Shown here in pieces: positions 1 to 64,000 of a DNA stretch of 64,000 nucleotides (its first letter is position 1; each line of letters opens with the position of its first letter). The notes under the pieces are model-generated. The model was not told the origin of the DNA. It did not search any database and was given only the letters and a program-made list of their open reading frames with translations. Location of the stretch: the NCBI GenBank assembly GCA_902728285.1, contig CACVBU010001039.1, positions 325,279 through 389,278 of the forward strand, given 5' to 3'. The position numbers and the translations under genes are program-made. The stretch is from Clytia hemisphaerica (Eukaryota > Cnidaria > Hydrozoa > Leptothecata > Clytiidae).

Positions 1-149
1 TGTTTCGATGTTAAAACGGATAAAACAGCTACCGAGGACCCTATAACTTTAATAATGTTTTGCAGGGTTCAGGGTTTAAGGTCTCTGATTCCAAGAATGT
101 TTTCGTGAAAAAAACCCTCTATAACGTCAGCAACACTTCGATATTTTCA

Positions 150-235
150 AATTCCTTAGAATCTGAATCTCTTTTATTCAACATCGAATTTTTAGCAATT
201 CGACTTTGAGAGGGAGATATTAAATTCCAAGAAAG
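150..235 (+). ncRNA. Pre-miRNA-like hairpin, TTTAGC-loop family (type copy)
   Basis: The 5' arm runs from ATTCCTTAGAATCTGAATCT to CATCGAATT. The loop is TTTAGC. The 3' arm runs from AATTCGACTTTGAGAGGGAG to TAAATTCCAAG. Folding by eye gives about 35 paired positions: CGAATT with AATTCG next to the loop, TCTC with GAGA in the middle, and a TTCC...GAATCT segment with an A-rich/GGAAT segment at the base, with bulges between. Other copies lie near 1068, 1506, 2221, 2786, 3224, 3663, 4906, 5340, 5786, 7226, 7929, 8369 and 8804. Stem length, small loop and imperfect pairing fit animal pre-miRNAs. Expression is not known. Confidence 0.55.
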
Positions 236-422
236 TTTTAGTGTGAAATCAGCGTGTTGTATTTCACATTTCCAAATTTTTGTTGGATTCTTTGAAACTA
301 ACTTTAGACATTTTCAACCCAAGTTCGAGTATCATATATGGGATTCACATAGAAAACCTTTGAGAGAAATTGACTTTTATATGTTTTGGTGTCGATGGAC
401 CGCTGAATTATATCTTTTAGAT

Positions 423-498
423 TTTTGGAAACAGATCCTTGGACATTGATTTGGATTTATGAAATCTGGTTCAGGGTTTAAGGTTTCTGATTCCAAGA
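423..498 (+). ncRNA. Pre-miRNA-like hairpin, TATGA-loop family (type copy)
   Basis: The 5' arm begins TTTGGAAACAGATCCTTGGA and ends TTTGGATT. The loop is TATGA. The 3' arm begins AATCTGGTTCAGGGTTTAAG and ends CTGATTCCAAG. Reverse-complementing the 3' arm gives a sequence that matches the 5' arm at most of about 34 positions (TTGGAA, CAGAT and GGATT/AGATT blocks), with G:U pairs. Related copies are near 560, 927, 1370, 2650, 3530, 4785, 5200, 7115, 7530, 7795, 8665, 8985 and 10610. It alternates with the TTTAGC-loop hairpin in the same array. Confidence 0.55.
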
Positions 499-1596
499 AT
501 GCTTTAGTGTAAAGAACCCGCGATTACCCTCTCATGGTGATGGATCTCTAAATAATATCTTTTAATTTTGGAAACAGATCTTTGGACTTTTGAAGTGAGA
601 TTCATAAAATCTGGCTCAGGGTACAAGATAACTGATTCCAAGAATGTTTTAGCGTTAAGAACCCGAATTTTTAGCAACTCGACTTTGAGTGCAAGATATG
701 AGATTCCAAGAAAGTTTTAGTGTGAAATCAGCGTGTTGTATTTCTCAAGATATCAATTTCGAAAATTTTGTGGGATTCTTTAAAACTATCCTTAGACATT
801 TGTAAACCTGAGTATCCAGTAACATTTAGCGGATTTACAGAGAAAACCTTTGTGTGAAATATTGACTTTCATAAGTTTTTGGGAAGCACGCGATACCTCT
901 CTCATGGTGATGGATCTCTAAATAATATCTTTTAATTCTGGAAACAGATCTTTGGACTTTTGAAGTGAGATTCATAAAATCTGGCTCAGGATACAAGATA
1001 ACTGATTCCAACAATGTTTTAGCGTTAAGAACCCTCTATAACATCAATGACACTCCGATGTTTTCTAATTCGTTAGAATCTGAATCTTTCAGCTCAAAAT
1101 CGAATTTTTAGCAACTCGACTTTGAGTGCAAGATATGAGATTCCAAGAAAGTTTTAGTGTGAAATCAGCGTGTTGTATTTCTCAAGATATCAATTTCGAA
1201 AATTTTGTGGGATTCATTAAAACTATCCTTAGACATTTGTAAACCTGATTATCCAGTAACATTTATCGGATTTACAGAGAAAACCTTTGTGTGAAATATT
1301 GACTTTCATAAGTTTTGGGGAAGCACGCGATACCTCTCTCATGGTGATGGACCTCTGAATTATATCTTTGATTTTTGGAGACAGATCCTTTGCTTTTTGA
1401 ACGTTAGATTTATGAAATCTGGTTCAAGGTTTAAGGTATCTGATTCTAAGAATGTTTTAGTGTAAAGAACCCACTTTAACTTCAGCAACACTTCAATATT
1501 TTCAAATTCCTTAGAATCTGAATCTCTTTTATTTAAGATCGAATTTTTAGCAATTCGACTTTGAGTGCGAGATATTAGATTCTATGATTCTATTCT

Positions 1597-4165
1597 TAGA
1601 TTCAACGATTCGCCTATTTATATTGAGTGAATGGCCTTCTTCTTTATTTTCGGAATCTATTGCGAGAAATTTTAATATGTATTTGTCCCTGAGAGCTAAT
1701 GGATTTAAAATTCTTTAAATGCCTGGGAAAAGGAAAAGCCAAAAGAAAAAATATATGATTTTATTCTGAGAATCTAATGGTTTGTACCTTCGATGGATGA
1801 GTCCTGGGTATTTGTCCTTGAAGAGAAAGCCTCCATGTTCTCAGACTGTTTCAATGTGAAAATATCACTAAGTGACCTGAACAAATTCTATTACTAATAT
1901 TAGTTGAGATACAACGGAGAAAAAATCCTCAGGCAGAATTGCTTTATATTCTTATAAATATCAAGGAATGTTAAGAATATGGCTCTATCATTAGATTCTG
2001 AGTGTTAAATCTTTAATGATAAAAACCTAGATATTGGCTTTTGAAGAGCACACCAACTCTATGGGTGAAAAGACGAATTTTATTATCAATAAAACTATGG
2101 ACTAAGTGGACTTTTGAGTTGGATTTATGAAATCTGCTTGTAGGTTTAAGGTATCTGATTCCAAGAATGCTTTAGTGTAAAGAACCCTCTATAACGTCAA
2201 CAACTCTCCGACAATTTCAAATTCCTTAGAATCTGAATCTCTTTTATTCAACATCGAATTTTTAGCGATTCGACCTTGAGAGGGAGATATTAAATTCCAA
2301 AAAAGTTTTAGTGTGAAATCAGCGTGTTGTATTTCTCAAGATATCAATTTCCAAAAATTTGTTAGATTCTTTGAAACTAACTTTAGATATTTTCAACCCA
2401 AGTTCGAGTATCATATATAGGATTCACAGAGAAAACCTTTGTGTGAAATATTAACTTTCGTATGTTTTGGGGAAACACGCGATACCTCTCTCATGGTGAC
2501 GGATCTCTTAATTCTATATTTAGATTCTTGGAACCAGATTCTTGAACTTTTGAGTTGGATTCATAAAATCTGGTTCAGGGTACAAGATATCTGATTTTGG
2601 GGAAGCACGCGATACCTCTCTCATGGTGATGGACCTCTGAATTATATCTTCGATTTTTGGAAACAGATCCTTGGACATTGAGTTGGATTTATAAAATCTG
2701 ATTCAGGGTTTAAGGTATCTGATTCCAAGAATGTTTTAGCGTTAAGAACCCTCTATAGCGTCAATGACACTCTGATGTTTTCTAATGCCTTAGAATCTGA
2801 ATCTCTTTTATTCAACATCGAATTTTTAGCAATTTGACTTTGAGAGGGAGATATTAGATTCCAAGAAAGTTTTAGTGTGAAAATAGCGTGTTGTATTTCT
2901 CAAAATATCAATTTCCAAAATTTTGTTGGATTCTTTGAAACTAACTTTAGACATTCTTAAACCTGAGTATCCAGCAGCATATATCGAATTCACAGAGAAA
3001 ACCTTTGTGTGAAATATTGACTTTTATATGTTTTGGTTAAGCACACAATACCTCTCTCATGCTGATGGACCTCTGAATTATATATTTAGATTCTTGGAAC
3101 CAGATTCTTGGCCTTTTGACCCCAGATTTATGAAATCTGGTTCAGGGTACAAGATATCTGATTCCTAGAATGTTTTAGCGTTAAGAACCCTCTATAACGT
3201 CAACGACTCTCCGATGTTTTCAAATGCCTTAGAATCTGAGTCTCTCCTATTTAAGATCGAATTTTAAGCAATTCGACTTTGAGAGTGAGATGTTAGATTC
3301 CAAGAAAGTCTTAGTGTGAAATCAGCGTGTTGTATTTCTCAACAGATCAATTATCAAAATTTTGTTGGATTCTTTGAAGCTATCTTTAGAAATTTTTAAA
3401 CTGAGTATCCAGTAGCATTATATCGAATTCACAGAGAGAAGCTTTGTGTGAAATATTGAATTTGATATGTTTTGGTTAAGCACGCGATACCTCTCTCATG
3501 GTGATGGACCTCTGAATTATATCTTTTAGATTTTTGGAAACAGATACTTGGACATTGATTTGGATTTATGAAATCTGGTTCAGGGTTTAAGGTATCTGAT
3601 TCCAAGAATGCTTTAGTGTAAAGAACCCTCTATAAGGTCAATGACAGTCCGATGTATTCTAATGCCTTAGAATCTGAATCTCTTTTATTGAACATTGAAA
3701 TTTTAGCAATTCGACTTTGAGTGCGAGATATTAGGTTTTATGATTCCATTCTTAGATTCAACGATTCGCCTGTGGATATTGAGTGAATGACCTCCTTCTT
3801 TATTTTCGGAATCTATTGCGAGAAATTTTAATATGTATTTGTCCCTGAGAGCTAATGGATTTAAAATTCTTTAAATGCCTGGGAAAAGGAAAAGCCAAAA
3901 GAAAAAATATATGATTTTATTCTGAGAATTTGATGGTTTGTACCTTCGATGGATTAGTCCTGGGTATTTGTCCTTGAAGAGAAATCCCCTATATTCTCAG
4001 ACTGTTTTAATGTGAAAATATCCACCTGAACAAATTCTATTAATAATATTAGTTGAGATACAACGGAGAAAAAATCCTCAGGCAGAATTGCTTTATATTC
4101 TTATAAATGTCAAGGAATGTTAAGAATATGGCTCTATCATTAGATGCTGAGTGTTAAATCTTTAA
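1597..4165 (+). repeat. Direct duplication of about 400 bp (1597-2000 and 3757-4165)
   Basis: The two segments read almost identically, starting GATTCAACGATTCGCCT and running through TTTGTCCCTGAGAGCTAATG to the region ending AATGTTAAGAATATGGCTCT. Small differences include a deletion of several bases in the second copy near 4020. The offset is about 2.16 kb, so a block of array (hairpins plus this linker) was duplicated as one piece. The second copy lies directly upstream of the promoter motif at 4276. Confidence 0.8.
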
Positions 4166-4275
4166 TGTGTGTTGAGATTTCAAACCTATTCCGTATTTAT
4201 CAGAGTTTCTAAAATAGACATTTCATTTCATTCAAGAGTGAATTGAGTGAATTTCATATGGTCACAAAAACTATT

Positions 4276-4379
4276 TGACGTCAAATATGATTCTGAAAAA
4301 TATAATATTTCAAATTAAAAAATATCTAAGAAGCAAGAGAAAGATCATTTATGACAATCAACTCATCATTAAACAAGGT
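4276..4379 (+). promoter_or_regulatory. Unit 1 start: CRE-like motif plus first exon to splice donor
   Basis: TGACGTCAAATA lies at 4276-4287. With its left flank it extends to an almost perfect palindrome, ATTTGACGTCAAAT. A 5' splice donor CAAG|GTAAAC falls at 4377/4378, 101 bp after the motif. The interval contains only a short accidental ORF. The same motif-to-donor architecture appears ten more times in the window on this strand, which is the main reason to call it. The motif is a CREB/ATF-type site by established knowledge; its use as a promoter here is inferred. Confidence 0.55.
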
Positions 4380-7300
4380 AAACTATCATTCACTCTTGGA
4401 TATATTTTTGTACTCAGATTTAAATTTGTGACAACCAAAGATTATGTTTCAATTCCAGAAGATCTTTAAAATTTCTAAGAATCTGGTTTTGAGTATGAAA
4501 TATCGGATTCAGAGAATACTTTGGTATAAAAATTGTTTTTTCATGACCTTCACTTCAAAAGGTTTTTAGATTCTCGAAATCTGAAACTTGCGTTTTTTGC
4601 TAGATTTATAATAATTTGGCTTAAAGGACAAAGTATTAGATTCTTAGAAAGTTTTGCTGTTTGATGCAAAAACGTAATAAAAATCTACCAAGACCCTATT
4701 ATAATAACTTTCATATGCTATGGCGTAAAAGATTGTCAAATCTTTCTTGTAGTTATATATCTCAGAATTATATCTTAGACTTTTGGAAACAGATCCTTTG
4801 CTTTTTGAACGTTAGATTTATGAAATCTGGTTCAAGGTTTAAGGTATCTGATTCCAAGAATGGTAAAGAACCTTCTATAACGTCAACGACTCTCCAACAT
4901 TTTCACATTCCTTAGAATCTGAATCTATTTTATTTAAGATCGAATTTTTAGCAATTCGACTTTAAGAGCGAGATGTTAGATTCCAAGAAAGTTTTAATGT
5001 GAAATCAGGGTGTCCGTATTTCTCAAGATATAAATTTCCAAAATTTTGTTGGATTCTTTGAAACTATCTTTAGACATTTTTAAACCGTACAGTAGCATAT
5101 ATCGAATTCACAGAGAAAATCTTGGTGTGAAAAATTGACTTTTATATGTTTTGGTTAAGCACACAATACCTCTCTCATGGTGATGGACCTCTAAGTTATA
5201 TCTTAGATGTTTGGAACAGATCCTTGGACTTTTGAGTTGGATTTATGAAATCTGGTTCAGGGTTTTAAGGTATCTGATTCCAAGAATGCTTTAGTGTAAA
5301 GAACCCTCTATAACGTCAACGACGCTCCGACATTTTCAAATTCCTTAAAATCTGAATTTTTTCATCAATGTTGGATTTTTAGCAACTCGACTTTGAGTGC
5401 GAGATATGAGATTCAAAGAATGTTTTAGTGTGAAATCAGCGTGCTGTCTTTTATTCTCACAAGATCAATTTCCAAAATTTTGTGGGATTCTTTAAAACTA
5501 TCCTAAGGTTTACATTTGTAAACCTGAGTATCCAGTAGCATATATCAAATTCACAGAGAAACCCTTTGTGTGAAATATTGACTTTCATAAGTTTTGGGAA
5601 AGCACGCGATACCTCTCTCATGGCGATGGACCTCTTAATTCTATATCTAGATTCTTGGAACCAGATTCTTAGACTTTTGACCCCAGATTTATGAAATCTG
5701 GTTCAGAGTACAAGATATCTGATTTCTAGAATGTTTTAGTGTATAAAAACCCTCTATAAAGTCAACGACACTTCAACATTTTCACATTCCTTAGAATCTG
5801 AATCTCTTTTTCAATGTTGAATTTTTAGCAATTCGACTTTGAGAGGGAGATATTAGATTCCAAGAAGGTTTTAGTGTGAAATCAGCGTGTTGTCTTTCTC
5901 AAGATATCATTATCAAAATTTTGTTGGATTATTGGAAACTAACTTTAGATATTTTCAACCCAAGTTCGAGTATCATATATGGGATTCACAGAGAAAACCT
6001 TTGTATGAAATATTAACTTTCGTATGTTTTGGTGAAGTACGCGATACCTCTCTCATGGTGATGAATCTCTAAATAATCTATATATTAATAGTGGTAGTCT
6101 GTATGTGTGTTTGTCTGTGTTTTCTACTTTCGTTTTCGCTTTGTTTGTGTTTTAAAATTATGACTTTTAGCCTCTTGCTCCACAAATTTGTTTCATTGGA
6201 TTCGCGCCATTTGCAAAAGATCGGATAGAGCTTGGTTTAGACTTTATTAAGCCTTTGTTTTGAAATTTAAGGCCCATCTACATTTAGTAATTTTAACTTC
6301 TGCCCAGACTTGCCTTTTTCTCTCTTCTTTTGTTTTAAATGTTTTCGAATGTATTTAACGATCGTATTTATTAATGACATTCGAATTCTTTTCAAAACAA
6401 AACAATTTCATTTCATAGAAAAGAATATTTCAAATTAGTAAATAATCAAATTACATAAAAAGGGGGATTGGTGGACAACAGCGATTCAAAGGGCGATATA
6501 AAGCAAAACATAAGAAAAAATCAGTTCACTTCTTTTTTCTTATAAAAATATTCAAGCCGTCGTTACCATTGAGTTTAAAGCCCGAAGGGCTAAAGTTCAA
6601 TCTCTAACCTTTCTCAGGCAAGAAAAAGTGAAGCTTAAAAAATGCGCCGCATTTTTGACGACAGATTGAATCTAGCAATTCCTTTGTTTACGATTGATAT
6701 TTTTTTCGAAATTTAGAGGTAAATTTTATAGTATTAATCTGTCATTTGTGTAAAAACCAGGCGAGCCGCTCAAGGCCGCGCTACTTTGGTAGGATTTGTT
6801 GGCTTCAAATCCTACCAAGGAGATTGACTTCTAGCCCTTCGGGCTTATACTTCATTGGTCGTTACTGCTAAAAAGTGTGTACGTCATTTTCCCGGGGGGG
6901 GGGGACTAGGGCTTTATGTCTCGGGAGGGGGGCAGTAAACGATCCAAATATGGTTAAAAGATAAGACACCCGGGGAAGGTTAGAGTTAAACGTTGTACAG
7001 ATTTCTTTTTTTTATTTGATCGCTTTTTTAAGCCAGCTTCAACATCCAAAGGACTTTTAGTGCGTTCAGCTACAGCTTAACCGGCGTGCGACGCCGGGTA
7101 CCGGCTAGTATCTTTTAATTTGGAAACAGATCTTTGGACTTTTGAAGTGAGATTCATAAAATCTGGCTCAGGGTACAAGATAACTGATTCCAAGAATGTT
7201 ATCAACGACTCTCCAATGTTTTCTAATTCCTTAGAATCTAAATCTTTCAGCTCAAAATCGAATTTTTAGCATTTCGACTTTGAGAGGGAGATATTAGATT

Positions 7301-9080
7301 CCAAGAAAGTTTTAGTGTGAAATCAGCGTGTTGTATTTCTCAAGATATCAATTTCGAAATTTTTGCTTGATTCTTTGAAACTATCTTTAGACATTTTTAA
7401 ACCTGAGTATCCAGTAACATTCATCAAATTTACAGAGAAAACCTTTGTGTGAAAAATTGGTTTCTATATGTTTTGGTGAAGCACGCGATACCTCTCTCAT
7501 GGTAATGAACCTCTGAATTATATCTTAGATTTTTGGAAACAGATCCTTTCACTTTTGAGTTGGATTTATAAAATTTGGTCCAGGGTTTAAGGTATCTGAT
7601 TTCTGTAGAATGTTTTAGTGTGAAATCAGCGTGTTTGGATTATCGGAAACTAACTTTAGAAATTTTCAACCCAAGTTCGAGTATCATATATGGGATTCAC
7701 AGAGAAAACCTTGATGTGAAATATTAACTTTTATATGTTTTGGTGTCGCACGCGATACCTTTCTCATGGTTATGGATCTCTAAATAATATCTTTTAATTT
7801 TTGAAACAGATCTTTGGACTTTTGAAGTGAGATTCATAAAATCTGGCTCAGGGTGAAAGATAACTGATTCCAAGAATGTTATAGCGTTAAGAACCCTCTA
7901 TAACATCAACGACTCTCCAATGTTTTCTAATTCCTTAGAATCTTAATCTTTTCAGCTCAAAATCGAATTTTTAGCAATTCGACTTTGAGTGCAAGATATG
8001 AGATTCCAAGAAAGTATTAGTGTGAAATCAGCGTGTTGTATTTCTCAAGATATCAATTTCGAAAATTTTGTGGGATTCTTTGAAGCTATCTTTAGACATT
8101 TGAAAACCTGAGTATCCAGTAACAGTTATCGAATTTACAGAGAAAACCTTTGTGTGAAATATTGACTTTCATAAGTTTTGGGGAAGCACGCGATACCTCT
8201 CTCATGGTGATGAACCTCTTAATTCTATATTTTGATTCTTGGAACCAGATTCTTAGACTTTTGACCCCAGATTTATGAAATCTGGTTTAGGGTACAAGAT
8301 ATCTGATTCCTAGAATGTTTTAGTGTAAAGAACCCTCTATAAACGTCAACGACGCTCCGACATTTTCACATTCCTTAGAATCTGAATCTCTTTTTCAATG
8401 TTGAATTTTTAGCAACTCGACTTTGAGAGGGAGATATTAGATTCCAAGAAAGTTTTAGTGTGAAATCAGCGTGTTGTCTTTCTCAAGATATCATTATCAA
8501 AATTTTGTTGGATTATTGGAAACTAACTTTAGACATTTTCAACCCAAGTTCGAGTATCATATATGGGATTCACAGGGAAAAACTTGATGTGAAATATCAA
8601 CTTTTATATGTTTTGGTGTCGCACGCGATACCCCTCTCATGGTGATGGATCTCTAAATAACATCTTAGATTTTCGGAAACAGATCCTTTGCCTTTTGGAC
8701 GTTAGATTTATAAAATCTAGTTCAGGGTTTTAAGGTATCTGATTCCAAGAATGCTTTAGTGTAAAGAACCCTCTATAACGTCAACGACTCCCCAACATTT
8801 TTACATTCCTTAGAATCTGAATCTCTTTTATTTAAGATCGAATTTTTAGCAATTCGACTTTGAGAGGGAGATATTAGATTCCAAGAAAGTTTTAGTGTGA
8901 AATCAGCGTGTTGTATTTCTCAAGATATCATTATCAAAATTTTGCTGGATTATTGGAAACTAACTTAACCTCTGAATTATATCTTAGATTTTTGGAAACA
9001 GATTCTTGGTCTTTTGAGCTTAGATTTATAAAATCTGGTTCAGGGTTCAAGGTATCTGATTCCTAGAATGTTCGTAAGTG
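4378..9080 (+). repeat. Hairpin array, unit 1 proximal part
   Basis: This continues the same two hairpin families as unit 0 (loops TTTAGC and TATGA), now downstream of the splice donor at 4378. Clear TTTAGC-type copies lie near 4906-4990, 5340-5422, 5786-5870, 7226-7310, 7929-8010, 8369-8455 and 8804-8890. The array is split by a Helitron at 6077-7108. ORFs at 4661-4915, 5887-6072 and 8460-8645 read through hairpins and linkers and share no recognisable domain, so they are not called as genes. Confidence 0.7.
6077..7108 (+). mobile_element. Complete non-autonomous Helitron, 1032 bp
   Basis: The element starts with TC (TCTATATATTAATAGTGG) and ends in CTAG. A GC-rich hairpin CCGGCGT-GCG-ACGCCGG lies at 7081-7097, 11 bp before the end. 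The flanks are A on the left and T on the right. Joining them gives AAATAA|TATCTTTT, the sequence seen uninterrupted at several other array copies such as 7780-7795, so the empty site is in the same window. These are the defining features of Helitrons (TC start, CTRR end, 3' hairpin, AT target, no target duplication). There is no Rep/helicase ORF, so it must depend on enzymes from elsewhere. Its interior (about 6555-6700 and 6780-6850) carries sequence shared in inverted orientation with 22917-23205. Confidence 0.9.
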
Positions 9081-12060
9081 AAAGCACAATCAAACAGTTA
9101 TCTACTTTCCTATACGTGTTTTGATGGAGAATTCGCAAAGTCTGTCTAACGGTAATGACTGTTCTTTTAATTTTATTAGATTCTTAGCATGTAAGCGTTT
9201 GAGTGTCAACCTCAAATTCTCAGCAATCAGTTCAAGATATTAGATTCCAACAATGTTTTGGTGTGAAACATTTTGAAGATAATGTTCGTCAACCACCTTA
9301 AGCTGGCGAGACCAGTAAAATGAAATGATTAATACTTCTCTGTGCAATAATTTTTATTCTTTGAATTTAACCACTCGTTTTTTCTTGGCAAAGCTATGGC
9401 GTTTTGCCTTGAGCCCGAATGGATTAAAGTCTCAGAATGCTTTAAAATATAATAGAAAAGTTTAACGATTGACCTATGAATAAAGATTGAATACACTCTT
9501 TCTATATTTTTACAATCTAATCCATACGATCTTGCGATACATTTTAGAATGTATTGTTCCTAAGAGGTAATGAATTTGAATTCTTGTAATGTTAAGGAAA
9601 AGAAGAAGCCGAAAGACTATTTTTGTAAATCATATTATTAACTTCCGCCTAGTTGAGATAGAATCCGAGTGCTAATGATATTTTACTCTGCTTTCCATAC
9701 CAAGGCCTTATTGGCCAACCTTAGTATCAAAATGTAACAGGGAAGGCATCCTCTTTTGTTTTTGACCAACCGCAAGACGAAAATTTCCCCTACTTACTTT
9801 TATTCAGTGATAAAGATCTTTTACTGTTTTCGGTACCATGTTCTACCTTTGATCCTTGGAGTCTGCTATCATGATGGATAAAGTTTTTAAAGTGGTTTTT
9901 GGTCTGTTTTTTATGAACTTTATAATCCTTACTGTTGTTACAGATCCTTTGAAATCTGAAAGACAGCATGACGATTAAGTGCCTAGAATGATAGTTTGAA
10001 TGAGATTTAAGTTAGATGGTTTTATCGTGGATCTTGTGAAAGATAGACGTAATAACTGTTGCGTATGAAAAAATTGACTCCCATATGTTTTGGCGAAGCA
10101 CGCGATATGTATGGTGATGGAACTCTGAATTATAACTTAGATGTTTGGAAACAGATCTTTGGACTTTTGAAGTTAGATTTGATAAAATCTGGTTCCAAGC
10201 ATACCTTGATCCCTAAGAATAAAAGTCTTTGAGTGTCAACCTCAAAATCTCAGCAATGAGTTAAAGATACTAGATTTCAACAATATTTTGTGAAACATTT
10301 TCAAGTTAATGTTCATCAACCAACTTAAGCTGGCGAGACCAGTAAAATGAAATGACTAATACTTCTCTGTGCAATATATTTTCATTCCTTGAATTTAACC
10401 TCTCGTGCTCTTCATGCTAAAGCTACGGTGTTTTGCCTTTAGGGCCCGATAGATCAAATTCTCAGAATGCTATAAAATATAATATAGAAATATAACGATT
10501 CGCCTATGGATATTGAGTGAATGGCCTTCTTCTCTATATGAGAAAAATTGACTCTGGGTACTTCTTGATGAAGCACGCGATATGTATGGTTATAGATCTC
10601 TTTATTATATCTTAGATTTTCGGAAACAGATCTTTGGACTTTTGAAGCTAGATTTGATAAAATCTGGTTTAGGGTTTAAGGTATCTGATTCCAAGAATGT
10701 TTTGATGTGAAAACATAATAAAACAGCTCTCTACTTTCCCGTATGTTTTGGTGAAGTATTCGTAAAGTCTTCCTCACAGCAATGGCTGCTCTTTTGATTT
10801 ACGAGCATCCTTTTAAGGGCTACTTAGACTACACAATATATTCACTAACAATATTTGACAATATCGTTTTCGGACCGTAATGTACGAAGTAAATAACAGG
10901 TACTTTATTATAAAAGAAAATTTCTTTCTGTAAATGATCCTTCTATATTGTTGGAATATTGCAAATCGAGCTGGCAATATATTGCGGACTTATTTTCAAT
11001 ATATTGCCGGCACTCAGCAATATATCATTAATATATTGCCTGACAATATATTGTGTAGTGTATGTAGGTAGCATTCAAGATACTAGATTTTCATTCTTGG
11101 AATCTAATGAGTCTGTGACAATTCAATGACCAAATCCTAGGTATTTGTTTTGAAGAGCACATCATCAGATTCTCAGAATGTCTGGATGTGAAAACATCAG
11201 TAACTGACCTGAATGAGTTCTATGTATTAACTTTAGTTGAGATATTAATCAGAAGGTCAATCTTCCTAAGATGGGTTTATATTCTAATAAATGTCAAGAA
11301 ATGACCAGACTATGGTTATATTCTTGGATTCTGATTGTTGTATGTTCAATGACCAAATCCTTGATATTTGTCTTTGAAAAGCACACCAACCAACGGGTTT
11401 TATACAAAGCTGCAAGGGTTATTCTTCTAGTTGTGCGTTAACTGTTAATTGAAATTAGATTTCAAGAATTTCTTTGGAGTTAATAATGCCACCCATTGTA
11501 CAAGCAGATTCATAGTAGTCTGATGATCAAAATGGCATTCAATTCTTTTGGATGGAAAGATATATGATTTAAGCAGTTGGATCCAAGTGTATGTTTTCAT
11601 GGAAGCACTGTCTTTAGATTTAAAAAACTCTGAGGCTAACTAGTGACACAAATTTCCATGGACGAATGGAGGCTTGAAATACAGTCTTGTAGAAAAATTT
11701 CTCAGAGATCCAAATACTGTCCCAACAAAGAGTTAGAATTAAAATGTAACGGGGAAGGCATCATCCTTGGTTTTTAAGTAACCACAAACCGAAGATCCCC
11801 CTACTACATTTTATTCAGTGCATAAAGATCTTTTTTTCTGCTTTCGGAAAAATAGTACCTTCGATTCTTGGAGTCTGCTTTTATTAACATATCTTTCAAA
11901 TCGGTTTTAGTAACTTGATTATGAATATATGATATAAGGAGAATTGTGATTCAAACATTATAATCAAAGTCTGTCAAAGTTTCCTCTTTCTCTTAGAATT
12001 ATTTCCCATTGGAGCTTATTGCCACTGGATGATTTTAGATTCATAGTAATCTATAAAATC
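9080..12060 (+). repeat. Unit 1 distal part: degenerate array and linkers
   Basis: No gene is visible. The region holds diverged copies of the TATGA-loop hairpin (near 10130-10200 and 10610-10700). It also holds repeated linkers, for example CTTAAGCTGGCGAGACCAGT at about 9299 and 10325, and a segment around ATTCAGTG..AAAGATCTTTT at about 9800 and 11815. Many blocks keep the array-wide phrase GATTC(C/T)..AGAATGTTTT. It is interrupted by the TIR element at 10820-11071. Density of good hairpins is lower than in 1-9 kb. Confidence 0.5.
10820..11071. mobile_element. Short TIR element (MITE), about 250 bp
   Basis: The left end CTACTTAGACTACACAATAT matches the reverse complement of the right end, CTACCTACATACACTACACA followed by ATATATTG, with one small gap. 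The interior is AT-rich and built largely from the motif CAATATATTG, which occurs repeatedly from about 10973 to 11052. There is no ORF. No clear target duplication is visible, so the superfamily is unassigned. Confidence 0.6.
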
Positions 12061-12061
12061 A

Positions 12062-15660: not shown

Positions 15661-15663
15661 TCA

Positions 15664-45300: not shown

Positions 45301-45303
45301 ATC

Positions 45304-48662: not shown

Positions 48663-48669
48663 TATGAGC

Positions 48670-51600: not shown

Positions 51601-51765
51601 AATCACCCGATTTCTTGAACTTTATAAAATGAATTCTTATTGGAACTCATGCAATGTTTGATAGCAAAATCCTTCAAATCTAGCAAAATGTTTTGAGAGA
51701 TGTAGACATTGGGAGAAGCAAGTATCCGATTTCTTAAGTTCTTTCAAATGAACTTAACCTCGTTT
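48670..51765 (+). repeat. Hairpin array, unit 8 distal part
   Basis: Diverged hairpins with CTTTCAAATGAA tops and GAAGCAA.../...TTGCTTC bases occur near 48678, 48868, 49050, 49920, 50305, 50860, 51090, 51235, 51410, 51600 and 51710. A GC-richer fragment at about 49465-49655 (GAGGCCCTCC..GGGGCCTC) is a likely small TIR element. A single inverted pogo-like terminus, GAAGTTCGAATAAACGAAAG, sits at about 49723-49742. No gene is visible; ORFs such as 50152-50400 (minus) lack domains. Confidence 0.55.
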
Positions 51766-52346: not shown

Positions 52347-52590
52347 TGACGTCAAATATTTTATCATGTTTTAACAAAATTGACGTTAAATATTTATTCA
52401 TCTTGCAAAACACACTTTTGAAAATACAAAAATTCAACTAAAAGTTGACACGGTCAAGTAAAGACATGGGAGAAATCTTCATTGCAATAGTATCGTATTT
52501 TCATGTTTTTCATTTGGTATAGCATTGCTTTGGGAACTCAAAAAACTCATGAAGACCAATGATTTCAAGATATTTCAAAAGGATACAGGT
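52347..52590 (+). promoter_or_regulatory. Unit 9 start: doubled CRE-like motif plus first exon to donor
   Basis: TGACGTCAAATA at 52347-52358 is followed by TGACGTTAAATA at 52381-52392. Both sit in an AACAAAATTGACGT(C/T)AAATATTT context, so the motif itself has been duplicated. The donor ACAG|GTATGT lies at 52588/52589, 241 bp after the first motif, the longest such distance here. The second copy has lost the palindrome (GTT). Confidence 0.55.
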
Positions 52591-53561: not shown

Positions 53562-53701
53562 TGACGTCAAATATTATTTTTGAAAGATTTTTCTTAAAAG
53601 CAATCAAATGAAAATCAAAGACAGAGTGTTACATTAAGTACTATCAGGACGAAACAACATACAAATAAAAAACGCTATATATGACAAGTGTCAAAGATGG
53701 T
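53562..53701 (+). promoter_or_regulatory. Unit 10 start: CRE-like motif plus first exon to splice donor
   Basis: TGACGTCAAATA at 53562-53573 is followed by TTATTTTTGAAAG. A consensus donor GATG|GTAAGT is at 53699/53700. No ORF in the exon. The sequence 53730-54000 downstream matches the unit 2 intron around 13565-13700 (AAGCCTAAAAATGTT, TAGTTTGTTCTTATAAAAA), so units 2 and 10 share intron-start material. Confidence 0.58.
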
Positions 53702-54299: not shown

Positions 54300-56048
54300 G
54301 TTAAACATTTGCAAATAATTTCCTGTACACATTCAAGAAGGCACCATTTTAAGACACGCTACTTTCAAATGTAATGATTGTTGATAACGGCGTCTTCTTT
54401 GATTTTATGGTTTGCTGAGCTTGCAACAAAACCTGATGAAGTTTACGATGATGGTAGGATAAACAAAGTCAAATATGTGTACATCAAACATGGTTCGTCG
54501 AGCTTGTAATAGAACAAAATCTTACAATATAAAAGTTTTTATTTCATCACTTCAAATATATAGAAAACATGCTCTAGATCTGGATTACAATACTTTCAAA
54601 CGTATCGCGATGTTTATATCAAACACATAACTTTAATAAAGCCAAAACATTTCTAAACAGATTCAAGAAAACATCATTTGCGAAGTGACAATACTTCTCA
54701 TTGCCCTCCGACATGTGATGTCTTCTTTACTGTGATGAACTTAGGATAAAAAAGTAAAATGTGTAGAAACTTTTTATTGACCTGGACCACAATCATAATT
54801 TGTGTCTTCTTTGTTGTGATGAACTTGAGAGAACAAATTTAAAAATGGAAGGTTTTTTACATAGGTCAAAAATAACTTTATGTCTCATCAGAGAGGACAT
54901 TGATTTAGACCGCAATACTATCAAATGTACGCAAGGTTTTTGATTGTCTTCTCTGGTGTGAAGGTACATAAAATGAACAAATCGAATGGTAGGTCATTCG
55001 AACTTATGAGACGTTTTCTACAAAACGGTGTCTTCTTTGTTGTGATGAACTTGAGAGAACAAATTTAAAAACGGAAGGTTTTTTACATAGGTCAAGAAAA
55101 ACTTTATGTCTCATCAGAGAGGACATTGATTTAGACCCCAATACTATCAAATGTATTCTAGGTCTTTTGATTGGCTTCTCTGATGTGAAGGTGTATAAAA
55201 TGAACAAGTCGTATGGTAGGTCATTCGAACTTATCAGACGTTTTCTACAAAACAGTGTCTTTTTTGTTGTGATGAGCTTGAGCGAACAAATTTAAAAATG
55301 GAAGGTTTTTTACATAGGTCAAAAATAACTTTATGTCTCATCAGAGAGGACATTGACTTAGACCGCAATACTATCAAATGTATATTGGGCAGGTGATTGT
55401 CTTCTCTGGTGTGAAGGTGTATAAAATGAACAAACCTATGTTAGGTCACTCGAACTTATCAGACGTTGTCTATGAAATCGAGATGCATTATTTGGTGGTA
55501 CAATACTTTCATATGTACATGATCTGATCAAGTAATTGTCTTCTTTGATGTGATGGTTAGTCGGATTTGCGTTAGAATGATAAACGGACGAACATATAAG
55601 TATTGCATGGATTCAAGAGGATATTTTCGTTGAACATCTTGTCATTTTTTTGGCAAGTATCGTACTCTTTGATTTAGGTCGATGATAAACTTTTATTTCG
55701 TCAGAGAGGACAGTGATATCTCAATACTATCAAATGTATTCGCAGGTTTTCATTGTTTTTTCTGAAGTGAAGGTGTATAAAATGAACATAATAATATGTT
55801 TGGTCATGCGAACTTATCAAACGTTTTCTAACTAATAATTTTTAAATGGATTCAAGAGGACATTATTTATAGATGCAATGCTTTCAAATGTATTTGCATC
55901 TATCATTTTTGTCTTCTTGCATTTTTGTGATTTCAACCAATGTCTTTTTTGAGGCATGGAACTTGAGAGAATAAAGCCAAAGAACCTACACAGAATCAAA
56001 AAAAAATCTGACTTTATCTGCACTGAAGATATTGACTTAAACCGAAAT
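54300..56048 (+). repeat. Hairpin array, unit 10 proximal part
   Basis: Repeated block of about 220 bp at 54785-54990, 55020-55215 and 55255-55450. It carries TTTTTTACATAGGTCAA, TCATCAGAGAGGACATTGA and TGTCTTCTCTGGTGTGAAGG. Further copies lie near 55700 and 55850. Each holds a hairpin with a (T/A)TCAAAT loop. The minus-strand ORFs 55004-55207 and 55832-56023 are repeat readings. Confidence 0.8.
55109..55190 (+). ncRNA. Pre-miRNA-like hairpin, AGAGGACA / TATCAAAT-loop family
   Basis: The 5' arm is TCTCATCAGAGAGGACATTG then ATTTAGACCCCAATAC. The loop is TATCAAAT. The 3' arm is GTATTCTAGGTCTTTTGATT then GGCTTCTCTGATGTGA. Arms pair over about 34 positions: TCATCAGAGA with TCTCTGATGTGA, GACC with GGTC, AATAC with GTATT. 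Close copies: 54889-54963 and 55331-55415; related copies near 57740, 58388, 58810, 60000, 60740 and 61098. Confidence 0.6.
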
Positions 56049-57573
56049 CAGGGTGTCTACGGATTTTTTTTCCGGGATTTTCAAGGTTTTCAAGGTTTTT
56101 TTGGTCATTTTTAAGTGGTTTTTCAAGGTTTTTTGGCTAAAACTTTGGGACTTTTCAAGGTTTTTTGATACTCATTTGACATGGCTCTTTACAGGAATTT
56201 TTTTTTTTTCAGAGGACAGCAAATAAAATTGATTCGCTTTTGGTGCCTGGGGAATTACTTCCACAGTTAAGGGCTCTGACCATAGTGAATTTTTCATGAT
56301 TGCTGTGTTTAAAATGTGTTTTCTGACTGATGTAACCAACAAAACTATGGCATGTTATACATTTTCTGTTAGACAAACTATTCCTGAATCTGAAAATTCA
56401 AAAATTGCATTGAAAAAATTTGATGAAGAAGAAAATGAAAACTTTTGCGAGGAAGAGTATTTCAACTTTGAAGAGCTTAGTTTCGACGAAGAAAAAACAT
56501 TTTGAAAATTTTTTCGCAGTAGATGGTGTATCTTTTACCGAACAATAAAAATTTTTGCGTAAAATTTTTGTAAATGCTTCTTTGTCTCGATATCTTCAAA
56601 ATAGTGGTTTTTCAGCAATTTTTCATCTGGATTTTGCTTAAAAACAGTCATAACTTTTGACACATCTTTTTAGAAAAACTTTCCGCAAAATTCAAAATAG
56701 TTCAATTCTTTGCGGACAGTGTAAAGAAATTTTGAAACAAAAAAGTTAATTACCCATTGAAACTAAGCACTTTTTGTAAAAGAGGGTGATGCAACATATT
56801 ATTAAAATCCTTTTAAAGTTCATAACGTCATTTTTGCAATTAAATTCTTAATTACTCTTAGGGGATTCGATTAAAAAGCAATTTATAAAGGCAATTCTTT
56901 GTTAAAAGTGTTAAGGAACCTGAAATATAACTCATGTTCAAATACCAAAATCAATTTTTGAACTATGGTCAGAGCCCTTAAATTCCTATCTCCCTCTCGA
57001 GAACAATACTACAAAGAGAAATACTCCAGCTCCCTAGTCTTCCAACTGTAGAAATAAAAAATTAGAAGCGAAACCAATTGTTTACAGTGACCGAGGAGGC
57101 GCAACCATGGTTTGCGCCGACGAGAGAAAATTTTGATTTTGAGTCTTTCAAATGGCTAAAAAGCGCCTTGTTTTTGATTTTGTTTTTTACAAAAATCAAT
57201 TTCCAAAAGAGTTATTTTAAGGAATCTTCGAAATTTTATTGATGAACGGCCATTATTCCAAGACGCCCTGAAGCGATTTGAAAGTTGGGGAACAGTCGAT
57301 TTCTTAGGGCTCATGCAAACATGAAAATCACAACAGAAACAGGGAAATATGGAATTCTCTAAATGTTATAAAGGTTTATAGCGCCGCAGGCGGTTTTTAC
57401 TTATTCTTACTTTTCGAATGTCTGGATAGTGCTTTTCAAGGTTTTTAACGATTTTTCAAGGTTTTCAAGGCTTTTCCCAGAAAATTGATAGTTTTCAAGG
57501 TTTTCAAGGTTGGGTGGTTCATTTTCAAGGTTTTCAAGGTTTTCAAGGTTTTCAAGGTCCCGTAGACACCCTG
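56049..57573. mobile_element. TIR transposon, 1525 bp, with GAAAT target duplication
   Basis: Ends are CAGGGTGTCTACGG at 56049 and its inverse CCGTAGACACCCTG ending at 57573. GAAAT is repeated directly on each side (56044-56048 and 57574-57578). Both subterminal regions are made of many TTTTCAAGG repeats, on the same strand at both ends. No transposase ORF. It contains a second transposon at 56271-56977. The superfamily is not certain. It interrupts the hairpin array of unit 10. Confidence 0.85.
56271..56977. mobile_element. Nested piggyBac-like element, 707 bp, TTAA flanks
   Basis: TTAA-GGGCTCTGACCATAGT at the left and ACTATGGTCAGAGCCC-TTAA at the right: exact 16-bp inverted termini with TTAA on both sides, the signature of piggyBac transposition. 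It lies wholly inside the 56049-57573 element, so it arrived later. It carries a 69-codon ORF (56296-56505) with a strongly acidic C-terminal half (EEENENFCEEEYFNFEELSF) and no known domain, which may be a transposase fragment or chance. Confidence 0.88.
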
Positions 57574-59635
57574 GAAATCGTCAGAGAGGACATTGATATA
57601 GATTCGAACGATCGAGAGTTACTCAGAAATCCCTCACATAATCCTTCTGAGAAGACATCATGAGGTTGTCAAGATGGGCATAGATAGGAGCACAAAAAAA
57701 TGAAAAGAACCTAACACGGATGTTAACCCTTAAATTTCTTCACAGAGGAATGACTTAGACTGTAATACTTTCAATGTATTGACCTCTTTATGATCTTGTC
57801 TTCTGCGAAGAAAAGATGTTTAAGAGGAAGGGTGAATATAGAAAGATACAATTGGTCACTCCAACTCGTGCATTGTTACATTCAAATTCAAAGAGACATT
57901 TCCTCCGTAGTTTTATTGCTCCGAGCTCCACAAATTCGAGAAGATATCATTTGAGGTCACGATACTTTCAAATGTATAATTGTGATTCTTTCCAATATCT
58001 TCTTTGATGTAAAGGACTTTGAAGAACAAAACAAAAATACACATACACATTCAAGAAAACATCATTTGAAGACCAAAGACTTTCAAATGTATTCTTTTGT
58101 CAGCCACAAATGTCTTCTTTGATGTGACAATTTGGCAATCTTGTAAAATGTTGCTCGTGGTAACAGTGGTGGGATCGAGTCCCCTGTTTTGAAGGCGTGT
58201 ATAAATAAAGAACGGTTGAGAGTTACTCAGACATTCCCCACACATCCCATGAAAACATCATGATGTTATCAAGATGGCCATGGGAGCACAAAACAAAATT
58301 TGAAGACCGGCACGAGAGAAAGAAACAAAAATGGAAGGAACATACGAAGGATCTAAGAAAACCTTAAGAAGTTAATTTCATCACAGAGGACATACACTTA
58401 GACCGCGTGATACTTTCAACGTATTCTCTTGCTTTTAAGTATTGTCTTCTGCGATGAAAATATATTCAAAAAGAAGGATGGATATAGTAACATAGGGTAA
58501 CTGGAATTCAGGAATCTTTACATACACACTCAAGAAGACAACATTCGAAGACAAAAGACTTTCAAATGTATTCCTTTGTCGCCAAATATGTCTTCTTTGA
58601 TGTGATGGTTCGGTGATCTTGCAATACATGTCTCTCAGATGATAGGATCAAGTTCTTTGGTGGGACGTATATAGATCAGAGCAGTAGATAGTTATTACTC
58701 AGAAATCCCCAAAACATCCAAAGAAAACATCATAAGGTTATATCAAGATGGCCACATGGGGCATCAAACAAAAATTGAAGCAATCTACCACGAATGTTAA
58801 CCCTTAAATTTCTTCACAGAGGACATGACTTAGACTGTAATACTTTCAATGTAATGATCTGTTTTTGATCTTGTCTTCTGCGAAGAAAAGATGTTTAAGA
58901 GGAAGGGCGAATCTAAAAAGATACAGTTGATCACTCCAACTCGCGCAATTTTACATAGACATTCAAAAAGACATCATTTGAAGACATAATACTTTCAAAT
59001 GTATTCTAATGTCTATAGCTGATGTCTTCTTTAGTGTAATTGTCCGACGATATCTCCAAGTTCTTTGATGTGACGGCTGGAAGATCAGAACAGTCAAGTG
59101 AAAGTAAGAATTCCCACACACAGCCCGAGAAGACAATTTCGAGATTACAATACTTTCAAATGTATGGTATAAGTTTCATCGATGCCTTCTTTGACATGGT
59201 GATGAAATTGATTTAAAATGTAATACTGCTAATTGTATTGCTTCAATTTTTTTCATGTCTTCAGCGAAGCGAAGGTGTCTAAGAATTCGGTACTTAAAAA
59301 ATCCATTTGAACATAATTTGCGAATCAAGGTTTGAAGTTACAGTCAATACGCTTGAGAGTTCAGTTTCTAGAAATTGATGTAATACTTCGTTGAGTGTGT
59401 ACAAATAGATTGAGGAAAAACTCAAAATTTAACTTAAACACATACATATTCAAAAAGACATTATTTGAAGACAAAATACTTTCAAATGTAATCCGCCGTC
59501 AGTGATGTCTTCTTTGATATGTCGATGTAATGGTTGATGACAAGCTTTTCACAACACAAGGTACGATACTTTCAACTGTAAATGTGTCAGCTGGTATATT
59601 CTATGGTGCCATGGACTTCACTGCGTCGTTGAAAA
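57574..59635 (+). repeat. Hairpin array, unit 10 middle part
   Basis: At least ten hairpins with ATACTTTCAA(A/C)(T/G)TAT tops. One type has CACAGAGGA..TGTCTTCTGCGA arms (57740, 58388 and 58810). The other has AAGACATCA..TGATGTCTTCTTT arms (57945, 58045, 58525, 58965, 59130 and 59455). The two types alternate. ORFs in this stretch (57816-58007 and others) read through them. Confidence 0.8.
59455..59514 (+). ncRNA. Pre-miRNA-like hairpin, AAGACATCA / TTTCAAAT-loop family
   Basis: The 5' arm is AAAGACATTATTTGAAGACA then AAATAC. The loop is TTTCAAAT. The 3' arm is GTAATCCGCCGTCAGTGATG then TCTTCTTT. AAAGACAT pairs with GTGATGTCTT with a small bulge, and ATAC/GTAA closes the loop. The same TTTCAAAT loop appears in the otherwise unrelated GGCAATCA hairpins of unit 8. 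Confidence 0.5.
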
Positions 59636-59955
59636 AGGCCCAGGGGGGGGGGGCAGCTGGGCAAAAGGACCGACAGGTATGTCCGGGTCCTAAGGGTACC
59701 TTTTCCAATATGTTTAAAATGCACTGTAAGGGTAGAAATTTCAGAAAATTCTTAAAAAATCTAGATATTTTGACCAAAAATGCTAGAATTTTTACCATTT
59801 TTTTGCACGAAAGGGATCGAAAATTTGGGGGAGAATGCACTCTAAGGGTATGATTTTCACTGATTTTTGCTGCACTGTAAGGGTGCAATTTTAAAAGCCA
59901 ATTTTTGGCCCGCACATACCGTCAGTCCGCAAACCCAGTGCCCCCCGGGGGGAAA
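59630..59955. mobile_element. GC-flanked MITE-like element
   Basis: AGGCCCAGGGGGGGGGG then GCAGCTGGG at the left mirrors CCCAGTGCCCCCCGGGGGG at the right. Internal GCACTGTAAGGGT repeats occur at 59723, 59837 and 59872. Flanking array phrases (GTGCCATGGACTTCACTG before, ACATCACTGAATACGC after) match linker text seen uninterrupted near 61040-61080. The overlapping ORFs on both strands (59530-59853, 59601-59915) are readings of this element. Confidence 0.6.
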
Positions 59956-61261
59956 GGACATCACTGAATACGCAAGAATCAAATAAGACCTTCAATTTCA
60001 TCACAGAGGATGTTGACTCTTACCATAATACTTTCATATTGTATACAGGTTGGTTTTTTCGTCATCTTCTGTGATGCAATGATGTGTAGAATAAACACTA
60101 AAAATAGCAATAGCAACTTAAACTCGGAGATTCTCGTGTATATCAAAGAAGATCATTGGGTGATAAGACACTTTCAAATGTATAGTCGGTGCTAGCGACT
60201 TCTCTGATTTAATACATTTAAGATCAAATTTGACAGAATGATATCTTGGACATTCTCCCGCATCAAAGAAGATTTTTAATGTCATCACTTAAGATATTGT
60301 GACTGCCACAACAATACTTCAAATTGTATTGCTTAGGTTTGCTCTTATCTTCAGCGATGTGATATGTGTAGAATAAACACTTAAAACAGCATTAAAGAAA
60401 TTCAATTTTAGCGATAACTCCATGCATCAAAGGAGACATCATTAAGGGTCGCGATACGTTTAAATCACGAAGGGCATGGGCTCAACCTAGAATACTTTCA
60501 AAATTTTTGTTCGGTATTCAAATGCCTTCGGTGGAGTGCTGATGTTCGCAAAGACCTTCACCTGAATCAACTCAGAATTTACAATGCATACCAAGAAGAT
60601 CGTTTGAAGGTAGGATTCTTCCAACTGTATATGTGTCAGCTGATGAATTCTTTGACGTGCAATGGATCTCATCGTGGCATTGAGAAAAAACATCTCTTTT
60701 TGCGCAAGGATTAAATACTTAAGACCTTTCATTTCATCACAGAGGATGTTGAATCTTACCACAATACTTTCATATTGTACAGGTTGGTTTGTTCAACATC
60801 TTCTGTGATGCAATGATCTTTAAAGTAAACACTGAAAGTAGCAACAGCATCGGCGACTTGAACTCTCAGATTCTCATTCATATCAAAGAAGATCATTGGG
60901 TGATACGATACTTTCAAATGTATAGTCGGTGCTATCGACTTCTTCGATGTAATTAATTTAAGATTGATTTTGACAGAACGATATCTTGGATCAAATAAGA
61001 CCTTTAATGTCATCACAGAAAATCGTTTGAAGGCACGACTTCACCGTGGCATTGAGAAATGATATCTCTGAACATGCAAGGATCAAATAACCTTCAATTT
61101 CATCACAGAGGATGATGATTCTGACCACAATACTTTCAAGTTGTATTGGTTAGATTTGTTCTGTGATGCAATGATCTTTAAAATAAACACTGAAAGTAGC
61201 ATTCAGGCAATGTAACTTGGCGAATAAAACCTGAATTGGGCCATTCTATTTTATAACCATA
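59956..61261 (+). repeat. Hairpin array, unit 10 distal part
   Basis: Hairpins with ATACTTTCA(T/A)(A/T)TTGTA tops lie near 60000-60075, 60300-60360, 60740-60805 and 61098-61170, with CACAGAGGATGTTGA and CATCTTCTGTGATG arms. Another type at 60149-60210 and 60880-60950 has AAAGAAGATCATTGGGTGAT arms. A pair of near-repeats, about 60110-60290 and 60850-61020, shows block duplication. No gene. Confidence 0.75.
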
Positions 61262-62010: not shown

Positions 62011-62174
62011 TGACGTCAAATATTTTTTGTAAGAAGTAAAATGAAAATACAACACAACCTTAAAAATTATTTTAAAAAGCTTTACTTTTAACAGAGGGGG
62101 ACTGAAGATGCTACTGAAGGAAGAATCCCATCTCACGCTCCGCAGCTCTCACTGGCATGACTATTCACTTTGGT
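62011..62174 (+). promoter_or_regulatory. Unit 11 start: CRE-like motif plus first exon to splice donor
   Basis: TGACGTCAAATA at 62011-62022 extends leftwards to a perfect 20-bp palindrome, AATATTTGACGTCAAATATT. A T-run and GTAAGAAG follow. The donor TTTG|GTAAGT is at 62172/62173. The exon (about 62050-62172) is unusually GC-rich near its end (CTCACGCTCCGCAGCTCTCA). A pyrimidine-containing CTTTTAACAG at 62083-62092 might be an internal acceptor. Confidence 0.58.
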
Positions 62175-63660
62175 AAGTTTATCATCTATATTTTGACAAA
62201 ATATCCTGGAATGAGACATACGATTTGAATGATTTGTACGGTCATCAGTACCGATTTTTTCAGTCGTCATGTCGCATTTAAGGAGCCTTTTTTGTCATTG
62301 AAGGGTCAACAAAATAAGTTGTTTACACTTAACAGAATGATAGTTTGTAGACATTGCATATCATTGCTATATACTTCGGTGTTAGGGGTTTGACAAAAGC
62401 AAGAAATGGCATCTAGAGTGACTATTCCAAACTATTTCGTGAATAGTAGAGGTCCTTGATTCTTCGATACTTTCAAAGTAATGGTTGTATGAATGTCTAC
62501 TCTTTCTTTCATGCACTGTAAACCCGTGTATCAATACTAATACATTTGGCGTAGCATTGAGAAAATATTTTGAATCAATTTTCACATGCAAGAAGAGATC
62601 AAAAGAGTCTCTGATACTTTAATGTATTTTGAGGGGATTGTGTTCTCTCAATTCATGTGATGGATTTTTGAACACTTGGCTTGCAGCAGTAAAGAGAGGA
62701 GGAAATCGGAATGGATGTTTACATGCAATGAGAGAGTTTGTAGAGACGGATACTTTCATGTATTTATAGCTTTGAAATATTCTCTCAATTCGTGTAAAGA
62801 TAATTTTGTGGATAGGATAAGACGAAAAAGACGAGAAGACAAGTCAACTTGCTCCTTTTACTCATGTTAAAAACCTTGATTTATTCCTTTAAACATAACA
62901 TCGAATTGGGTTTCTGCAAGCATTGGGAGAAGCAATTATTGAATTTCTTGAATTCTTTATATTGAACTGGGATGCCTTTTATTGCTTCGTCTTGTGTTTG
63001 ATAACATTTTATTTACAATCAGTATAAAAACTTATTGGGGTTGTAAGTATTTAATACACTGTATACTCACACAATCAATACTTATGTGCAATATCAATAC
63101 ATTGGGCGTAGCATTGAGAAAATATTTTGAATCAATTTTCACATCCAAGAAGAGATCAAAATAATCTCTGATACTTTAATGTATATAGAGAAAATTTTTT
63201 TGAGTAGTAAAGAGAGGAAATCGGAATGGATGTTTACATGCAATGAGAGAGTTTGTAGAGACGGATACTTTCATGTATTTATAGCTTTGAAATATTCTCT
63301 CAATTCGTGTAAAGATAATTTTGTGGATAGGATAAGACGAAAGGGGCGAGAAAACAAGTCATCTTGCTCCTTTTACTCATGTAAAAAAACCTTGATTCAT
63401 TTTAAACATCGACAACACTAGGAGAAGCAAGTATTGGATTTCTTGAGTTCTTTTTATTGAACTGGAATGTCTTTACTTGGTTCGTCTTGTGTTTGATAAC
63501 ATTTTATTTACAATCAATATAAAATTTTTTTGGGTCAAAATGTTAACAACATCCAAAGGCTTCAAAAATTTTGAATGTTCGACTGAATAAATCGGTACTG
63601 ATGACCGTACAAATCATTCAAATCGTATGTCTCATTCCAGGATATTTTATTTAAAAAAAA
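62175..63660 (+). repeat. Hairpin array, unit 11, bracketed by an inverted repeat
   Basis: An inverted pair of about 69 bp, 62198-62266 and 63580-63649, encloses this stretch (AATATCCTGGAATGAGACAT on one side, ATGTCTCATTCCAGGATATT on the other). Inside, a block of about 512 bp is repeated directly (62570-62990 and 63120-63510). It contains hairpins with ATACTTTCATGTAT and GATACTTTAATGTAT tops. Two matching ORFs (62676-62870, 63179-63421) come from this duplicate and have no domain. Confidence 0.75.
62721..62794 (+). ncRNA. Hairpin, GAGAGA / ATACTTTCATGTAT family
   Basis: ACATGCAATGAGAGAGTTTG opens the 5' side and ATATTCTCTCAATTCGTGT closes the 3' side. GAGAGA pairs with TCTCTC, ATAC-TTTCAT-GTAT forms the top, and the middle is loose. 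An exact copy of this hairpin is at about 63233-63307. Confidence 0.45.
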
Positions 63661-63767
63661 AAAAGTGTATATCATTAGATCTTTTTAAGGATTTTCAAAC
63701 GATCACCGCTCAAATACAGTATTTCTGACTCATTTCATGCCAAAGAAGACGATGTTAATGGTCAGAA

Positions 63768-63911
63768 TTCATGATATGCACCACTGGAGAGTCTTCCAAG
63801 AATTTTTAAGAAGTTCAACCCCAATACGTCACTTTTAATAAAATGTATTGACATATTGGGTTGAACTTTTTGAAAATTCTCAGAAGACTCTCCAGTGTTG
63901 CATATCATGAA
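63768..63911 (+). ncRNA. Long near-perfect hairpin, about 64-bp arms
   Basis: The left arm starts TTCATGATATGCACCACTGG and continues through AGAGTCTTCC to AAGTTCAACCCCAATACGTC. The right arm is its inverse, ending AGTGTTGCATATCATGAA. Roughly six mismatches occur over about 64 pairs, with a loop of about 18 nt (CTTTTAATAAAATG). It is the longest uninterrupted inverted repeat I found. Such length is outside the pre-miRNA range and closer to hpRNA/endo-siRNA precursors or a foldback transposon. It lies in unit 11 among shorter hairpins. Confidence 0.7.
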
Positions 63912-64000
63912 TACTTTCAAAGGTATTTCTGAAGACTGAGGCGTCTTTCTTGATCTGAAGTCTTGATGAATACTATTATACATACTCTGAGAATTTTAGA

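Follow-up and report, generated by a model that had tools for sequence, protein, structure and literature searches.

A candidate multi-promoter cluster of microRNA-like genes in the hydrozoan Clytia hemisphaerica

What could be produced by a locus in which hairpin-bearing repeats are stacked head to tail on one strand and a single promoter-like motif recurs among them? This question is raised by a stretch of 64,000 nucleotides from Clytia hemisphaerica (GenBank assembly GCA_902728285.1, contig CACVBU010001039.1, positions 325,279 to 389,278 of the forward strand), referred to here as the window, from the first letter of which all positions are counted. The window (G+C content of 33.7% from base counts) had been put forward in a preliminary description as a giant cluster of promoter-driven transcription units that carry hairpin precursors in their first introns. 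As judged from features of the DNA sequence, the locus is likely to be a multi-promoter cluster of microRNA (miRNA)-like genes.

Promoter-like motif and splice-donor modules

The 12-base motif TGACGTCAAATA occurs in 10 exact copies on the plus strand, compared to 0.03 expected over both strands of the window, and this copy number was attained in none of 100 shuffles of the window. The motif also matches the minus strand twice, where the copies at 4276 and 62011 overlap palindromically. Eleven plus-strand starts had been described previously, and the eleventh is probably the near-copy TGACGTCAAAATA at 30067, which has one A added. All eleven are followed by a splice donor at a distance of 102 to 242 bp, in good agreement with the 100 to 240 bp first proposed. 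From the start of the motif to the donor, the modules extend over 4276-4378 (donor AAG/GTAAAC), 12692-12803, 19029-19158, 21597-21702, 25017-25148, 30067-30215 (the variant), 34841-35003, 41059-41170, 52347-52589, 53562-53700 and 62011-62173. The composition of the aligned columns around the motif is A-rich immediately 5′ and T-rich 2 to 6 bases 3′.

Donors were scored with a matrix of metazoan frequencies. Each of the ten exact copies has a donor with a score of at least 6.9, and the donor of the variant (AAG/GTATGC, 148 bp further on) scores 8.3; the probability of a donor of at least 6.9 in a random 200-bp window is 0.16. The best donors located 60 to 260 bp past the ten exact motifs had a mean score of 8.35, compared to 4.44 (standard deviation 0.77) at random plus-strand positions, and this mean was equalled in none of 5000 random position sets. 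Two cAMP response element (CRE) palindromes within a fibrinogen-C open reading frame (ORF), used as controls, had no good donor (14357 and 14794; scores of 5.0 and 4.6), nor did a motif variant at 28157 (score of 1.5). The variants at 41032 and 52381, the latter with one mismatch, have the same donors as the adjacent exact copies. In a self-comparison of the window, the flanks of the modules at 21597, 25017 and 30067 were related and the remaining module flanks were otherwise unrelated; because these three have common flanking sequence, the number of independent modules is approximately nine. A scan of viral sequences with the extended promoter motif gave no matches.

The donors are suggestive of a transcript of the mRNA type whose first exon is short. 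Second exons were looked for in the window and none was identified, and the number of acceptor-like sites differed only slightly between the strands (38 on plus, 32 on minus); the proposed placement of the hairpins in first introns is a conjecture. The module at 12692 is located approximately 1.5 kb 5′ of the fibrinogen-C ORF and may be a promoter that serves that gene. The modules might also be first exons used alternatively by a single protein gene located 3′ of the window, and the hairpins would then lie in long introns at the 5′ end of that gene. Such a gene would fit the eleven modules, which all point one way and have donors, and the lack of an identified exon further downstream. Intron 10 of mouse Sfmbt2, as far as its description was available, is an example of a miRNA cluster located in a host-gene intron, and a host gene of this kind is compatible with a cluster of miRNA-like genes. 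We consider it a rather unlikely explanation.

Hairpin arrays and their head-to-tail growth

A scan for imperfect inverted repeats found 84 with a score of at least 16, compared to a mean of 5.0 and a maximum of 8 in 10 shuffles, which bears out the earlier count of more than 80 hairpins. At a score of at least 18 there were 44 (1.2 in shuffles), at least 14 gave 119 (21.2 in shuffles), and at least 13.5 gave 134 with a median spacing of 343 bp. Taken together, these counts indicate that approximately 80 to 100 hairpins are present beyond chance. Folding gave the same picture on the plus strand, where 206 of 3196 windows of 100 nt reached -25 kcal/mol or lower, compared to 51.8 in five shuffles. 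The hairpins are discrete and imperfect, and their stems are sufficient for a base and a 22-nt duplex, as in a miRNA gene.

The hairpins had been assigned to about ten families. A grouping does exist, and it is better described as two superfamilies, S1 (1-35 kb) and S2 (41-62 kb), plus others. The 120 hairpins tested were chosen by arm pairing only, with 14 more (35-41 and 62-64 kb) left out; 64 belonged to S1 or S2 without mixing and 56 to neither. A GATTYWTA-type apex was present in 35 of the 77 hairpins at 1-35 kb and in none of the 43 at 41-62 kb, while a CTTTCA-type loop was present in 29 of those 43 and in none of the 77. These patterns were picked post hoc, and approximately 5% of general 18-mers match either one. 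The S1 base resembles ATTCTTGGAACCT...TTAGATTCCAAGAAT and its apex GATTTATAGCAATCTG, and the S2 loop is CTTTCAAA, found in contexts that include AATTCTTTCAAATGAATT or ATACTTTCAAATGTAT. A 17-base loop pattern matched 20 viral contigs, once in each, which was taken as chance, and 901 bases of S2 had no match in a phage collection.

All of the arrays are on the plus strand. At 153-10700 there are 14 type A and 11 type B hairpins of S1, mostly in units of approximately 440 bp, followed by an S1 array with a unit of approximately 155 bp (16656-18693, 12 copies found) and an S1-like array with a 144-bp unit (29102-29534). Tandem arrays with hairpin-containing units of 118 bp (36076-37046) and 168 bp (39720-40732) are in neither superfamily. 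S2 consists of an array with a 132-bp unit and the apex ACTTTCATAATGTA (42652-43342), a block with a 180-bp array inside (43167-45318), a second copy of this block (46080-48246), additional hairpins (48669-51792), and hairpins at 54322-60962 with an apex that is mostly ACTTTCAAATGT or ACTATCAAATGT, including a 227-bp array at 54802-55472.

Growth of the arrays has been head to tail, as had been described. Of the pairs found in the self-comparison, 336 were direct and 2 inverted, with 100,222 and 171 aligned bases (overlapping matches counted separately), and the two copies of the block of approximately 2.2 kb are 92% identical over 2187 alignment columns. The S2 loop is also one-way, with CTTTCAAATG found 28 times on the plus strand and never on the minus strand. 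Miniature inverted-repeat transposable elements are dispersed hairpin transposons inserted in both orientations, and insertions of that type were not found here, since both CTTTCAAATG and the duplications are one-way.

On average, the two arms of a hairpin pair better with each other than with foreign arms. In the loop-picked S2 set (n = 28), the 5′ arm pairs with its own 3′ arm at -23.4 kcal/mol, compared to -15.7 kcal/mol with foreign arms and -11.7 kcal/mol with shuffled arms, and 19 of the 28 own pairs reach -20 kcal/mol; in the S1 set (n = 52), the values for own and foreign arms are -17.9 and -13.3 kcal/mol. In S2, mirror pairing extends to approximately 45 nt from the apex before it drops, and in S1 to 35 to 40 nt. 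Identity by position was also compared across families, where 9 of 32 S1 rows and 22 of 34 S2 rows were left after dropping those at least 80% alike; the conserved S2 loop in this comparison was not used as evidence because the rows were largely chosen by that loop.

Diversity within families and possible origins

Diversity was determined in nine families, which consisted of J227 and eight tandem families (12 reference hairpins were tried, and four with fewer than three copies were removed). The loop, the 5′ base and the 3′ base were each below the mean diversity of the two flanks in all nine families (Wilcoxon P = 0.004), and in F132 and H144 the diversity of the base on the 5′ side can exceed one of the two flanks. 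Paired sites were less diverse than the flank in seven of the eight tandem families, the exception being B. One arm was significantly less diverse than the other in five of the nine families at P<0.05 and in four after Bonferroni correction. The three S2 families favour the 5′ arm: in G180 it is almost invariant and the 3′ arm varied (P = 0.0002), and it is also the conserved one in F132 and J227 (P = 0.003 and 0.005). In H144 and A, the 3′ arm is conserved (P = 0.003 and 0.028). This asymmetry would look like that of guide and passenger strands, with the reservation that the column tests are inflated where few copies change in blocks. In the 32-row S1 alignment, RNAalifold found 14 pairs, and in 7 of these there were rows changed on both sides with pairing retained.

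In two S2 families (42722-43332, 46162-46244 and 54878-55422), copies vary in the 3′ arm by whole blocks and not base by base, a pattern that suggests conversion between hairpins.

Several results weigh against miRNA-like genes. The minus strand also folded more often than its shuffles (124 of 3196 windows compared to 23.0 in five shuffles), six minus-strand matches to the S2 loop appear when one mismatch is allowed, and the short S1 apex pattern is found 12 times on the minus strand (52 on plus). Foreign arms paired equally well in 128 of 720 cases for S2 and 699 of 2456 for S1. The 22-nt arms are less diverse than the flanks in just four (5′ arm) and five (3′ arm) of the nine families. In C155, E168 and D118 the asymmetry was not significant, B only tends to a conserved 3′ arm (P = 0.077), and the column tests overstate the result for F132 (6 copies) and J227 (4 copies) because the variable arm changes in blocks. 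RNAalifold gave no consensus fold for the 34-row S2 alignment. Type A had 3 compensatory pairs out of 36, which is not above controls slid by 1 or 2 columns (2, 2, 5 and 3), and type B had 2 out of 32, barely above its controls (1, 0, 0 and 1). The excess of G.U over A.C (243:142 and 42:24) points weakly to the plus strand and was not leaned on: strand composition is a confounder (base counts give an expected value of 1.25), and the excess is gone in the nine best hairpins (16:17). The search of the window against Rfam found no family at the gathering score, the 14 matches at E≤1 all being weak. Some of the families, and not all of them, have the pattern of constraint expected of miRNA-type precursors.

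Should the locus consist of miRNA-like genes, a bZIP/CRE-type or other factor would bind TGACGTCAAATA, and RNA polymerase II would start just 3′ of it, giving transcripts with a short non-coding first exon and a donor. The primary transcripts would bear series of hairpins with stems of approximately 35 to 40 bp, and Drosha-type and Dicer-type enzymes would cut these to duplexes of approximately 22 nt. The guide would be the 3′ arm in S1 and the 5′ arm in S2, where the conserved loop might overlap the guide seed, and the arrays would grow by head-to-tail duplication. Transcription, splicing, processing, loading and targets are the steps that we infer. Expression of a miRNA gene is recognised by reads of approximately 22 nt from both arms, 2-nt 3′ overhangs and fixed 5′ ends. 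A tentative extension, to which we give a low probability, is that the locus diversifies guide RNAs. The basal stem and terminal loop would then be a fixed processing scaffold, and the duplex between them would diversify as blocks are replaced and single bases change. The outcome would be a large repertoire with fast turnover, governed by a single promoter code common to the locus.

Hairpin RNA (hpRNA) loci are defined by a long inverted repeat with near-perfect stems. In an hpRNA locus that produces endogenous small interfering RNAs (endo-siRNAs), dicing would proceed without arm preference, and the products would silence transposons or a gene family. The window does contain tandem inverted repeats, and four of the nine families have no arm asymmetry at P<0.05. 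Long near-perfect stems were not found in S1 or S2, where pairing is over by 35 to 45 nt from the apex, short for an hpRNA as the class is defined, and an arm is favoured in the other five families. The exception is a hairpin at 63767-63912, which is far longer and better than the others and unlike them (score of 47.9; about -85 kcal/mol), and which may have arisen recently by inverted duplication or may represent a mobile element. The best complementarity of hairpin 21-mers to the fibrinogen-C ORF was 17 of 21, compared to 17 to 18 for codon-shuffled versions, with no sign of targeting. In Nematostella, inverted duplications are proposed, in the available part of the source, to begin as endo-siRNA sources and to become miRNAs later (PMC9923473). 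An hpRNA locus is an unlikely explanation for the window.

Least probable is a non-functional tandem satellite or duplicated hairpin-bearing mobile element with structure inherited without selection, for which the evident head-to-tail arrays, the few compensatory changes in types A and B and a PHD-like ORF speak, and against which stand the low loop and base diversity in nine of nine families, the S2 copies that on average still pair best with their own arm, the single orientation throughout, not that of scattered insertions, and the motif-donor modules recurring in mostly unrelated flanks; an inverted-repeat satellite, already ranked as the weaker alternative, is disfavoured because the stems are discrete and short, inverted duplication is almost absent and constraint is arm-specific.

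The Pfam comparison covered two ORFs. The fibrinogen-C ORF (14250-15203, plus strand; Pfam E = 1.7e-40) is uninterrupted, encodes 317 amino acids from the ATG and is the longest open frame of the window (339 codons from stop to stop). The two best matches of its protein both come from Clytia hemisphaerica, with identities of 54% and 49%. The PHD-finger-like ORF (45304-45735, minus strand) has a Pfam match under the curated cut-off and two relatives; a protein 78% identical to it is on a 1255-base ENA contig, and the ORF is possibly a component of a mobile element. At 12905-13236, a tandem repeat of 41-42 bp precedes a strong inverted repeat (13160-13236) that resembles it in sequence, both different from the two hairpin superfamilies. 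A tRNA scan of the window found none.

Related clusters and the meaning for cnidarian miRNAs

No described locus with this density, repeated promoter-exon module and block-wise tandem expansion had been known to the earlier description; for the density, this view is not supported, and repeated promoters also have a described parallel. The C2MC cluster in intron 10 of mouse Sfmbt2 has 65 miRNA genes in approximately 54 kb and tandem units with a hairpin of 82-83 nt (PMC3212979). It is similar to this locus in hairpin density, in tandem hairpin units and in duplicated larger composite units. Unlike this locus, it is located in one host intron, with hairpins over (AC)n/(GT)n microsatellites and units that include B1 pieces, and the described parts of the cluster contain no repeated promoter module. 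The zebrafish miR-430 cluster has one promoter for every two or three triplets (PMC10417697) and, in the text available, shares with this locus a tandem hairpin array and repeated promoters, which are here promoter-like motifs with donors. Its triplets are a, b and c variants of one family, whereas two superfamilies and others are present here, with the promoter-like motif in mostly unrelated flanks. This locus differs from both clusters in that several superfamilies are combined with one recurring motif, the flanks of which are mostly unrelated, and in its phylum. In a study of human primary miRNAs, a conserved loop is reported in 74 of 533 and is interpreted as a site at which processing factors land; that conservation is across species, whereas the loop diversity below the flanks in nine of nine families here is among paralogues.

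Cnidarians are described, in the accessible parts of two sources, as having few conserved miRNAs with high turnover (PMC9923473, PMC7935066). The targets of cnidarian miRNAs are reported to be cleaved and to have high complementarity (PMC7935066). No comparable cluster is described in those parts, and the present hairpins have no Rfam match; in the literature on cnidarian clusters, no giant miRNA cluster was named among the matches listed. Small-RNA work in Hydractinia predicted 347 miRNAs and retained 38, according to the part consulted (PMC11067881), which makes a large unrecognised hydrozoan repertoire conceivable. The arrangement of motifs and hairpins is real and organised; its form has precedents, and it is possibly new for its phylum and promoter layout. 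Expression of the locus would make it a cnidarian miRNA cluster of the giant scale known from mouse and fish, in a phylum with few conserved miRNAs, and TGACGTCAAATA would be a ready cis-element for a genome-wide search for such loci. The pattern of a conserved scaffold and a variable duplex may make the birth and turnover of miRNAs testable inside a single locus.

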